A DNA stretch of 51,438 nt. It comes from Planotetraspora mira (lineage in GTDB: Bacteria; Actinomycetota; Actinomycetes; Streptosporangiales; Streptosporangiaceae). This document shows positions 1-45,936 of this stretch, one piece after another; positions within the stretch are counted from its first letter, which is position 1; every line of letters starts with the position of its first letter. The stretch covers positions 1 to 51,438 of the forward strand of contig NZ_BOOO01000046.1 in NCBI RefSeq assembly GCF_016863275.1, given 5' to 3'. Made by a program: the position numbers and the translations under genes. The notes below the pieces were generated by a model. That model did not search any database and had not been told where the DNA came from. It saw only the letters and a list, made by a program, of their open reading frames with translations.

Positions 1-563
1 GATCATGCACACCTTCGGCGGAACCGTGATTGACCAGCGGTTACGTCTTCCGTGATCATGCACACGTTCGGGGAATGTGCCCCTGAACAGGCCCGACGCA
101 GTTCGTGATCATGCACAGCGTGCTAATCGGCCATGCACTGCCTCGGCGTGAGGCCGCCGGAGGATGATGCGGACGCATGCAGGCGCCTGCGTGCGGGCTG
201 GAGCGGGCATGGTCTGCCGCGGTGCCTGGCGGGCATTCTCCGTGGTTCGTGCATCGAGAAGCTGAGGGTCCTGGAAGCCATTTGCCGGTCAGCGATCTCC
301 GTCGGGAGCGCTCCCACGCAGATTTCGCGACCATCTCGTGCATGATCACGAACGGAATCGGACCTGCTCAGGGCAACATTCCCCGAACGTGTGCATGATC
401 ACGGAAGACGTAACCGCTGGTCAATCACGGTTCCGCCGAAGGTGTGCATGATCACGACCCGAGCCTGGGCAGGTCAGCAACCCCCTCCACGAACCCGTGC
501 ATGATCACGCCCAAGGTCGAGGCAGGTCAACGGCACATTCCTCGAACTTGTGCATGATCACGC
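1..563. repeat. 53-bp repeat array 1, inverted arms around a unique core
   Basis: Box A cores (GATCATGCAC) in + orientation have GATC at 1, 54 and 107. Cores in inverted orientation have GATC at 344, 397, 450, 503 and 556. Every step within an arm is exactly 53 bp. The two outer left units and the mirrored units at 344-453 are nearly identical across their whole length, including the usually variable part, so about 115 bp at the left edge can pair with about 338-460. The array ends 8 bp from the stop codon of the minus-strand DUF349 gene. It probably continues upstream of the window. No gene is supported here; short reading frames inside it are repeat artefacts. Confidence 0.9.
119..337. other. 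Non-repeat core of array 1 with 22-bp palindrome
   Basis: About 219 bp between the two inverted arms do not show the 53-bp unit. They contain a 22-bp palindrome at 174-195, centred on GGCGCC, with a single G/T mismatch pair. A degraded box-A-like string (GATGATGC) lies at 163-170. The segment could be decayed units, an insertion into the array centre, or a distinct functional centre replacing the short hairpin seen in arrays 2 and 3. No credible protein is encoded. Confidence 0.6.
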
Positions 564-568
564 GCGGT

Positions 569-1798
569 TTAGGAGAACTCCGCCAGGGTGCGCTCGGCTT
601 CTTCCAGCCAGGAACGACGGGCGGCCAGACCTTCCTCGGCCTCCTTGACGTCCTTGTCCCTTCCGCCGGCCCGCGCCTTGGCCAGGCGCGTCTCAAGCTG
701 CTCGATCGAGCGGCGGAGCTGGTTGACCGTGTCCTGGGCGCGGGCGCGGGCCTCGGGGTTCGAGCGCTTCCACTCGTTCTCCTCGGCCTTGCGGACGGCG
801 TCCTCGACGCGGCGCAGGCCGCCCTCGAGCTTGTCCCGCATCTCCCTGGGCACCGAGCCGGCGGCCTCCCAGCGCTCCAGAAGGTTCCGGAAGGCGCTGC
901 GGGCCGTACGGGCGTCAGTGACGGGCAGGAGCCGCTCCGCCTCGACCAGCAGGGCCTCCTTGACCTCCGCGTTGGCCGCGAACGAGGCGTCGCGCTCGGC
1001 GAAGACCGCCGACCTCGCCTGGAAGAACTGGTCCTGGGCGCCCTTGAACCGGCCCCACAGCTCGTCCTCGGCCTCGCGGGAGGCGCGCCCGGCGTTCTTC
1101 CACTGCCGCATCAGCTCGCGGTAGGCCGCCGCCGTGGCGTTCCAGTCGGTCGAGGACGCGAGCGCCTCGGCCTCCGTGACGATCCGCTCCTTGGAGCTCC
1201 GTATGGCGTCGCGCTGCTCGTCGAGGGACGAGAAGTAGGCCTTGCGCCGCTTCGCGAAAGCCGTACGGGCGGTGGACAGGCGCTTCCACAGGGTGGCCTC
1301 GGTCGCCCGGTCGATGCGCTCGGCGGCCTTCCACTCGTCGATGAGCTGCCGCAGGCGTTCGCCGCCGGACTTCCAGTGAGTGGCGTCCTCGGCGATGCGC
1401 TCGGCCTCGGCGACGATCCGCTCCTTGGTCTCCCGGGCCTGGACGCGAGCCTGGTCGCGGGCGGCCTTGACCTCCTCACGGCGCTTGCCGACGAGGTCGG
1501 TGAGCGCCGCGAGGCGGTCCTGGAGGGACGCGAGGTCGCCGATGGCGTGCGCCTCTGCGACCGCCTCCCGCAGCTTCGCGATGTTCGACTCGGCCTGAGC
1601 GGGCGCCAGGTCGGTGCCCTTCACCCGCTGTTCCAGGAGCTGGACCTGCCCGGCCAGCTCGTCGAACTTGCGGCGGTAGTAGGCCAGGGCCTCTTCAGGC
1701 TCGCCGGCCTGCCAGGACCCGACGGCCCGTTCTCCCTCAGCCGTACGCACGTAGACGGTGCCGTCAGCGTCTACCCGGCCCCACGGGTCGGTGGTCAC
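569..1798 (-). CDS. DUF349 domain-containing coiled-coil protein
   Basis: A protein of 409 residues rich in Glu, Arg, Lys and Ala, with repeated helical segments carrying the W-K-x-A-G/R pattern of DUF349 repeats. These include WKSGGERLRQLIDEWKAAER and related blocks near WNATAAAYRELMRQWKNAGR and FRNLLERWEAAGSVPREMRD. No signal peptide or membrane segment. Function is unknown; the family is widespread in actinomycetes. I chose the GTG at 1798 over the one 15 bp upstream because a GGGAGG ribosome site lies just before it, inside the longer reading. It follows the cyclophilin gene by 60 bp on the same strand, probably in one operon. Its 3' end abuts repeat array 1 and no ordinary terminator is visible. 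Confidence 0.85.
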   Translation of the reverse strand: MTTDPWGRVDADGTVYVRTAEGERAVGSWQAGEPEEALAYYRRKFDELAGQVQLLEQRVKGTDLAPAQAESNIAKLREAVAEAHAIGDLASLQDRLAALTDLVGKRREEVKAARDQARVQARETKERIVAEAERIAEDATHWKSGGERLRQLIDEWKAAERIDRATEATLWKRLSTARTAFAKRRKAYFSSLDEQRDAIRSSKERIVTEAEALASSTDWNATAAAYRELMRQWKNAGRASREAEDELWGRFKGAQDQFFQARSAVFAERDASFAANAEVKEALLVEAERLLPVTDARTARSAFRNLLERWEAAGSVPREMRDKLEGGLRRVEDAVRKAEENEWKRSNPEARARAQDTVNQLRRSIEQLETRLAKARAGGRDKDVKEAEEGLAARRSWLEEAERTLAEFS

Positions 1799-1858
1799 CG
1801 CGTCCTCCCGCACTTGAATCAGCCCTCCAGGGCCCGAAATGCCCTTGGTTGTATTACG

Positions 1859-44318: not shown

Positions 44319-45264
44319 CCAGGGCTCGGCGCCGGTCAGGCACTTCCTCCGGGACGACGACCTGTCGCCGGCGGAGCAGGCCCAGGTGCTCGACCTCGCC
44401 GAGGCGATGAAGAAGGACAGGTACGGCTACCGCCCCTTCGAGGGGCCGGCGACCGTTGCGGTGCTGTTCGACAAGCCGTCCACGCGGACCCGCGTCTCGT
44501 TCGCGGTCGGCGTCGGAGAACTCGGCGGGCTGCCGCTGATCATCGACGGCGGGGCGTCGCAGATGGGCAGGGGCGAGCCGATCGAGGACACCGCCCGGGT
44601 GTTGTCGCGCCAGGCGGCGGCCATCGTCTGGCGCACCTCGGGTCAGGAGCGCATCGAGGCGATGGCCTCGGCGTCGGCCGTGCCGGTGGTGAACGCGCTG
44701 ACCGACGAGTTCCACCCGTGCCAGATCCTCGCCGACCTCCAGACGATCCGGGAGCATCGGGGCGCGCTGCGCGGGCTCACCATGGCCTACCTGGGTGACG
44801 GGGCCAACAACATGGCCCATTCCTACCTGCTCGGCGGTGCGACGGCCGGGATGCACGTCCGGATCGGGGCGCCGTCCGGATACCTTCCCGACGCGCTGAT
44901 CCTCGACCGGGCGGCCGAGATCGCCGCGTCGACCGGGGGTTCTGTGACCGCGGTGAGCGATCCCGCGGCGGCGGTCGACGGCGTCCACGTGGTGGCGACG
45001 GACACCTGGGTGTCGATGGGCCAGGACGGCAAGGAGGAACGGATCGCGGCGTTCGGCCCGTTCCAGGTCAACTCCGCGCTGCTGGCCGGGGCGGCTCACG
45101 ACGCGATCGTGCTGCACTGCCTGCCGGCCTACCGGGGACTGGAGATCACCGCCGACGTCATCGACGGCCCGCGGAGCGTGGTGTGGGACCAGGCGGAGAA
45201 CCGGCTGCACGCGCAGAAGGCGCTCTTGCAGTGGCTGGTGTCGAGGAGTGGGGAGTCGTCATGA
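44311..45264 (+). CDS. argF: Ornithine carbamoyltransferase
   Basis: A 317-residue enzyme that makes citrulline from ornithine and carbamoyl phosphate. The carbamoyl-phosphate site is [15 protein letters not shown]; the partner loop is [23 protein letters not shown] and [15 protein letters not shown] are typical. The ornithine site includes DTWVSMGQ, and HCLPAYRG carries the catalytic Cys loop. Length is normal. Its position between argD and argR matches the mycobacterial order. It overlaps argD and argR. Confidence 0.96.
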
Positions 45265-45785
45265 CCATCCCGCTGACCAAGGCCGCACGCCATGCCCGCA
45301 TCATCGACCTGCTCACCCGGCACAAGGTCCGCTCGCAGCCGGAGCTGGCCAAGCTCCTGTCGGAGAGCGGTGTGGAGGTGACGCAGGCGACGTTGTCGCG
45401 CGACCTCGACGAGTTGGGGGCGCTCAAGCTGCGGGCCGACGACGGGACGTTGGTCTACGCCCTGCCGGGGGAGGGCGGCAGCCGGATTCCGCGCTATCGG
45501 GCGGGCAATGTGAACGGCTCCCCGGAGAACCCGGACGCCCGACTGAAAAGGATCGCGGAGGAGCTCCTGGTGTCGGCGGAGGCGTCCGCCAACCTGGTGA
45601 TCCTCCGTACACCACCGGGGGCGGCGCAGTTCCTGGCATCGGCCGTCGACCACGCGGGCTGGGAATCGATCCTCGGGACGGTGGCGGGGGACGACACGAT
45701 CCTGGTGATCAGCAGGGATCCGTTAGGCGGCACCGCTCTGGCCGCCGCGCTGCTCAACCTGACCACCCGCCGCCTGAACGGATAA
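45261..45785 (+). CDS. argR: Arginine repressor
   Basis: A 174-residue hexameric, arginine-binding repressor and activator. The winged-helix DNA-binding domain (about 1-75) has [20 protein letters not shown] and [21 protein letters not shown] linker follows, then the oligomerisation and arginine domain (about 100-174) with [20 protein letters not shown] and [17 protein letters not shown] (Gly-Asp-Asp-Thr arginine site). ATGA overlap with argF, GGGAG upstream. Likely targets are the ARG boxes before argC and at argG. Repeat array 4 begins 33 bp after its stop. Confidence 0.96.
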
Positions 45786-45818
45786 CCCCGCCACGCCTCC
45801 TCCACCGGTTCTCCCGCC

Positions 45819-45936
45819 GTGATCATGCACACATTCGTAAAAAGGGCCGCCGACCTGGAACTTCTTGCTTGGTGATCATGCACAGATTCGGGCCGGCCCG
45901 TGATGACCAGCACAAACATCAATCGTGATCATGCAA
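45819..45936 (+). repeat. 53-bp repeat array 4, single orientation, running into argG ribosome site
   Basis: Three box A cores in + orientation have GATC at 45821, 45874 and 45927, exactly 53 bp apart. The first two units carry box B (CGACCTGG and TGACCAGC at unit positions 31-38). The third stops after GATCATGCA and is joined directly to the argG ribosome site AGAGGAGG. There is no inverted arm and no central hairpin. It is the smallest array in the window and the only one lying within a presumed operon (argR to argG). Confidence 0.88.

Follow-up and report, generated by a model that had tools for sequence, protein, structure and literature searches.

Fixed-period motif arrays behind genes of Planotetraspora and related genera, probable platforms for sequence-specific DNA-binding proteins

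Why would the gaps behind ordinary genes of an actinobacterium carry one short motif over and over, at an almost unvarying distance and often in two converging arms? The question is raised by a stretch of 51,438 nucleotides from Planotetraspora mira (NZ_BOOO01000046.1, positions 1 to 51,438; hereafter the window), which starts with the first base of contig 46 in a 9.03-Mb Planotetraspora genome (label G000) and holds four such arrays (Table 1). The original prediction, made from the letters of the window, counted 29 box A cores in the four arrays, neighbours being 53 bp apart with one exception of 52 bp, and proposed either a protein-bound array or an RNA with regular structure. The comparative evidence considered here suggests that the arrays are probably binding platforms for one or more putative sequence-specific DNA-binding proteins, most likely marking gene ends and co-evolving with their sites.

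The counts proved correct. The motif GATCATGCAC, with up to one mismatch, matches the window 32 times against 2.72 expected (never more than 8 in any of 100 shuffles), and 27 of these matches belong to the phased cores, distributed over the four arrays as 8, 7, 9 and 3, the remaining five lying outside the phased cores at 7300, 15501, 23995 (-), 32764 (-) and 33176 (-). All 28 matches of GTGATCWKGCR (0.20 expected) fall inside the arrays, and the core at window position 1, whose first two bases precede the window, is the 29th. Same-strand cores within the arms are spaced by 53 bp, with the single 52-bp exception between 6718 and 6770. A two-core model built on 63 training rows, of which 13 were not independent of the region and 5 were taken from the window, gave 23 window matches at E ≤ 0.01, all within or overlapping the four arrays.

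The same period holds across the genome, and the regularity claimed for the window is thereby upheld. Exact GTGATCATGCAC occurs 623 times in the own genome (316 + 307; reversed-pattern control 0), with 165 + 144 core pairs exactly 53 bp apart. Over the window and at least 80 named Planotetraspora loci, allowing two mismatches per core, same-strand spacings below 700 bp were 53 in 333 cases, 52 in 14 and 54 in 4, the next commonest values being 18 and 35 (7 each). Contig 1 of G000 carries 13 arrays within 382 kb, from which roughly 300 arrays can be extrapolated for the genome.

The anatomy of the arrays is equally regular. The consensus of 302 distinct Planotetraspora units, GTGATCATGCACaggTTCGg....a..ccc.c.GACCtGcgc..ac.c....C, is 53 bp long, and an arm consists of a core followed by repeated spacer-core steps, with 3 to 5 cores in 154 of 165 Planotetraspora arms, in which the innermost core is followed by neither TTCG nor the second box. 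Counted without deduplication, the chains comprised 45 F-only, 47 R-only and 79 two-arm converging ones (76 of the 79 distinct), and the commonest centre distance was 24 in Planotetraspora (18 arrays), with 13 and 24 tying in the other genomes (6 each). Some Planotetraspora units show an apparent degenerate second core 18 bp in (columns 18-27); GATCA stands at columns 20-24 in 21 of the 302, which fits the core spacings of 18 and 35 bp.

The arrays lie preferentially behind genes. When 156 of them were compared with 885 background gaps (genes called by a custom script, orthologues between species kept), only 14 were located in divergent gaps, against 275 of the background, while convergent gaps held 57 arrays, against 143 of the background. 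Genome G090 taken alone gave 2 of 25 arrays in divergent gaps vs. 35 of 99 gaps. Group medians of the distance from the stop codon ranged from 8 to 46 bp, and in convergent gaps a median of 38 bp remains outside the array, while array-less gaps have a median of 142 bp in all. The enrichment of convergent gaps, where positive supercoils meet, and the dispersal of the arrays over the chromosome, as on contig 1, would also suit a site of nucleoid or chromosome folding (a supercoil sink, or a place where gyrase or condensin loads) that lies at gene ends simply because they suit it best, and repetitive extragenic palindromic (REP) sequences of Escherichia coli are reported as gyrase targets (PMC3733652). 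This possibility, to be entertained tentatively, overlaps with that of protein-bound platforms and assigns them another job; the present data do not separate a folding site from an insulator or a terminator.

Sequence constraint falls on the boxes of the unit. Twelve orthologous arrays were compared between G000 and G001 (12 of the 13 found on contig 1 of G000), and in the aligned blocks, 90.2% identical, the core differed at 39 of 763 positions (5.1%), TTCG at 15 of 192 (7.8%), box B at 94 of 448 (21%) and columns 19-30 at 198 of 579 (34%), with 12.7% divergence at the other aligned positions. Four of the many differences in array length between the two genomes were of exactly 53 bp.

Positions are conserved as well, since 33 of 34 arrays found in 16 syntenic blocks (12 with arrays), a comparison between species, lay at the four sites of the window. 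Of 13 genomes with coverage of the array 1 site, 12 carry an array there (five Planotetraspora, G062, G211, G212, G079, G074, G076 and G090; the site lies outside the pieces available for G070, G073 and G080), and the empty one, G078, has no relic, with a 231-bp gap and a hairpin as judged by eye. The aspS site is occupied in 8 of 16 genomes, with a centre distance of 24 in 7 of the 8, and the pheT site in 7 of 16, the G090 version having a 41-bp period. Behind argR, arrays occur in G000, G003, G001 (2 cores), G002 (3 cores), G062, G211 and G212, and the single 3-core arm of array 4 is found again in G003, G062, G211 and G212, so that a single arm is seen there in three genera; no array was seen at this site in the G004 block, in which the presence of argR was left unchecked. 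In 12 of 18 genomes no match to the downstream gene argG reached E ≤ 1e-100, yet G001 and G002 carry an array behind argR all the same, indicating that the array follows the upstream gene. In the aspS array the innermost cores of G000, G003 and G001 carry the same variant, GTGATCTGGCA, in both arms (L247-L249 compared), and in G002 one arm has TGGCA and the other CGGCA; the central stem seems to be kept.

Shared positions bear on the explanation that the arrays are mobile or selfish repeats, similar to REPs and bacterial interspersed mosaic elements (BIMEs), to miniature inverted-repeat transposable elements (MITEs) or to transposon ends, which accumulate behind genes where insertion is tolerated. 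Their copy number is high, the converging arms look like transposon ends, some units are near-copies of one another, and REPs are also described between unidirectional and convergent genes (PMC3733652). Nonetheless, array positions are kept across genera, and cores are held while spacers diverge. A companion Y1 (RAYT-type) transposase is a defining feature of REP/BIME elements, but PF01797 (Y1) gave no match in the array-bearing genomes G000-G003, G062, G074, G079 and G090, nor in G021 and G022, and its matches in 11 of 24 genomes searched fell in array-bearing (G004, G070, G076, G080, G211, G212) and array-less genomes alike; the REP/RAYT link was rejected. A viral or plasmid origin found no match either, no viral contig containing an exact 53-bp pair and array 2 being unmatched among plasmids. 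A transposon with cargo between the arms was rejected, since the genes lying there in the two loci inspected by eye (L083 and L133) look ordinary, being typA- and P450-like. A mobile origin is therefore quite unlikely.

While places are stable between related genera, the motif drifts in concert within each lineage, as though a single trans-acting protein read all of them. The core reads CATGCAC in most Planotetraspora, CATGCAG in G004 and CTTGCAG in G211 and G212, and CTTGTAG is found in most outermost cores of G079; G004 has 1 + 1 exact CAC-CAC pairs, but 347 + 328 with up to two mismatches. In G090, a further genus, cores 30-59 bp apart form 50 + 52 pairs genome-wide, mostly at 41 bp among the matches listed, and of 62 distinct successive exact pairs in the retrieved loci, 52 have the 41-bp spacing (the rest 40, 42 or 43); its second box is inverted relative to the core (gCAGGTCA vs. 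GACCTGC). Two genomes of genus g5 have few core pairs, irregularly spaced. Irregular GTGATCATGCAG cores in C-rich stretches of G022 (L206, L207) may represent a degenerate or simpler version of the array.

The arrays are confined to few genomes. Pairs of cores 53 bp apart with up to two mismatches were present in 14 of 341 genomes of the GTDB family, and in 16 of 338 when core and distance were loosened. The two-core model, run over the order with strict filters and few candidates scored per genome, matched 24 of 297 genomes (the share of these outside the family is not shown), 16 with at least 7 matches and the other 8 with one each, and all 24 belong to that family. On a midpoint-rooted pheT tree of 28 genomes, the presence of arrays requires 6 changes, at least 5 of them forced by well-supported branches, while shuffled labels required 9.7 on average and as few as 6 in 8 of 500 shuffles. 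Array-less G073 and G078 stand beside array-bearing G076, and array-less relatives nest among bearers; in genus g30 the arrays are borne by G070, G074, G076, G079 and G080. From this pattern and from the sites common to several genera we infer that the arrays are ancient and have repeatedly been lost wholesale.

Whether the units are read as DNA or as RNA can be addressed from the dependencies between their spacer columns. In Planotetraspora units the ten strongest are all between neighbours (43-44, 13-14, 22-23, 21-22 and 50-51 first), the weaker ones span at most 5 columns, and long-range complementary covariation within the unit was absent (the unit sets of G004 and G062, 25 and 23, are too small for judging it). 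A hairpin inside the unit, pairing AGGTTCG with CGACCTG, was rejected for this lack of covariation. At columns 43-44, AA was counted 91 times (59 expected), TT 45 (19) and TA 20 (49), with CA also short; at columns 13-14, CC and CT were in excess and CG short. Among the 52 units of G090, columns 13-14 gave AA 24, TT 18, AT 4 and TA 0, and columns 20-21 AA 13, TT 12, AT 4 and TA 1. Since AA on one strand is TT on the other, these preferences are read as the shape of double-stranded DNA and not as RNA, and recognition at the DNA level is well supported. Spacers of opposite arms are hardly more similar than chance, the innermost variable columns being 0.413 identical vs. 0.384 between arrays, with the outer opposite units F2/R2 more alike (0.530, n = 30). 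The two arms are thus not complementary outside the shared boxes, and a long hairpin joining them was rejected on this ground. Of the two readings originally proposed, a protein-bound array would best describe this fixed-period class.

Hairpins at gene ends gave a mixed picture. In convergent gaps, a strong hairpin (minimum free energy ≤ -25) was present in the first 100 nt past the stop codon at 17 of 90 array ends vs. 84 of 166 others. In a separate comparison, stems scoring at least 30 in the 150 nt after the stop occurred at 1 of 41 array ends vs. 69 of 243 others. Behind aspS, a strong stem followed the stop codon in 7 of 8 array-less genomes and in none of 5 Planotetraspora with the array (scores of 43-56.5 in seven array-less g30 genomes, 23 in array-less G090 and 13.5-25.5 in the five Planotetraspora). 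A masked-folding test (19/45 vs. 72/83) was discarded because masking alone lowers the counts, array-less gaps masked every 53 bp having also fallen, to 29/83; the hairpin evidence retained is that of the aspS orthologues and of the 100-nt comparison made without masking. As to arrays replacing terminators, the deficit within 150 nt has no counterpart in whole gaps. In light of these results a function at gene ends is likely and one as terminator no more than possible, the evidence on termination or insulation being mixed. At L267, 3' of pheT in G004, the loop of a strong hairpin contains a core of the array, the two structures being nested.

As to mechanism, one protein or protein pair would bind cooperatively and make a single set of contacts in each unit (53 bp; 41 bp in G090), comprising the core GTGATCWTGCA, the flanking TTCG/TCG/TCCC and a second box near TGASCWGS, while the rigid steps between boxes would be read via DNA shape. 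The arm follows the scheme core-[spacer-core]n, with an innermost core devoid of flanking contacts, and arms are found right behind stop codons, singly or as converging pairs. So placed, the arrays would most likely act as a roadblock, an insulator or a supercoil boundary that marks the end of a gene, and the central core-core hairpin, where present, may act as a terminator.

Several results weigh against this interpretation, in which the reader protein itself, its cooperativity and the gene-end role are inferred. The disappearance of arrays in close relatives is not accounted for by the model. Columns 21-23 show an excess of GAT/ATC, resembling a partial core, and not of AA/TT, so the shape reading does not extend to all columns. 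The claim that all cores face one side of the helix fits the periods of 53 and 41 bp, but a 10-11-bp rhythm in spacer conservation was not found (p = 0.52), nor was phasing of centre distances over 27-109 bp. Folding whole convergent gaps gave a strong hairpin in 35 of 45 with arrays vs. 72 of 83 without, and over all gene-end gaps the stem score was reached in 46 of 109 with arrays vs. 143 of 537 without. Whole gaps are not short of hairpins because many two-arm arrays form core-core hairpins (a stem of at least 30 in 32 of 60 two-arm gaps unmasked and in 7 of 60 with cores masked), and one-arm gaps have hairpins at the usual rate; other hairpins numbered 11/47 in one-arm gaps, 133/502 in the background and 7/60 in two-arm gaps. 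At aspS, the array of G062 coexists with a hairpin (39.5), and core-core hairpins (46.5-47.5) occur in G211 and G212, while at pheT a stem of at least 30 occurs in 6 of 9 array-less vs. 4 of 7 array-bearing genomes. Finally, single arms in tandem gaps run along transcription in 35 cases vs. 15 opposed (orthologues kept), as an RNA-level role would likewise predict.

This last lean, the placement at gene ends, the constant centre of the aspS array and the innermost-core hairpins common in two-arm arrays would agree with an RNA or cruciform element in which the converging arms pair into a hairpin within the 3' untranslated region and so stabilise or terminate transcripts. However, one-arm chains are numerous beside the two-arm ones, the argR array stays one-armed in three genera, opposite spacers are near chance similarity, long-range complementary covariation is absent and some columns take either AA or TT. 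The symmetric stem, moreover, has a median of 15 bp vs. 12 in the control (centres ≤ 25 bp), and the window contains no Rfam gathering match. An RNA with regular structure, the second of the original proposals, is therefore unlikely, even with the hairpins credited to it.

The four arrays of the window and their neighbours are collected in Table 1. Both window and contig start inside array 1, and the contig end may therefore be an assembly break at the repeat.

Table 1. Arrays of the window and adjoining features (core coordinates of array 1 are GTGATCWTGCA positions).
Feature	Position	Strand	Description
Array 1	1..561		two arms; + cores before 1, at 52 and 105; - cores at 339, 392, 445, 498 and 551
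Array 1 neighbour	569-1813	-	DUF349 gene, array at its 3' end
Array 2	6718..7122		two arms with 4 cores on + and 5 on -, centre distance 24; immediately 3' of aspS (5004-6692 +)
Array 2 centre	6863..6922		hairpin from the two innermost cores, GTGATCTGGCA in both arms
Array 3	23946..24350		two arms with 5 cores on + and 4 on -, centre distance 23
Array 3 neighbours			convergent pheT (21318-23888 +) and penicillin-amidase gene (24369-27545 -), array in between
Array 4	45819..45935	+	one arm, 3 cores; between argR (45261-45785 +) and argG (45953-47146 +)

Some soil bacteria of one actinobacterial family thus carry hundreds of evenly spaced motifs just past their gene ends. If the protein-platform reading is true, this lineage organises gene ends by sequence-specific protein arrays and not by RNA hairpins alone, and the sites shared across genera, core dialects, two periods, inverted box and array-less relatives would constitute a natural experiment in protein-DNA co-evolution, in which the bounds of bacterial transcription units and the change of one regulator's code at hundreds of sites become directly testable. 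A bolder version, still doubtful, would see in them chromosome-wide protein-bound boundary arrays at gene ends, about 300 sites per genome and a functional counterpart of insulator or terminator-protein arrays, the code drifting with one reader, the step having passed from about five to four helical turns in one genus, and whole species having discarded reader and sites.

The original prediction recognised no named repeat class, and that assessment stands: by the features tested here and the open-access literature, in which no description of such arrays was found (one elsewhere being possible), they fit no known class. With REP/BIME elements they share the extragenic position behind genes and rarity in divergent gaps, but REP/BIME units are palindromes of 20-40 bp, whereas these arrays are built of direct, asymmetric, non-palindromic units with a fixed 53- or 41-bp period, at positions common to several genera. 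These shared positions also set them apart from MITEs and insertion sequence ends, and known structured RNAs had no counterpart in the window by Rfam. Short repeats at regular distance with variable spacers recall clustered regularly interspaced short palindromic repeats (CRISPR), whose repeats, however, are identical and whose acquired spacers are unrelated, while here the spacers share a second box and align between species at orthologous arrays, which are many, small, often two-armed and converging, and located at gene ends; no cas family was among the family matches of eight window genes, no search having been aimed at cas genes. The mycobacterial interspersed repetitive units and variable-number tandem repeats (MIRU/VNTR) are intergenic, near-identical tandem copies, some with a 53-bp unit, whereas these arrays share the boxes alone and differ in their spacers. 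In iteron or parS-like arrays a cognate protein reads direct repeats that are spaced at a constant distance, and the arrays described here differ from them by their hundreds of chromosomal copies behind ordinary genes.

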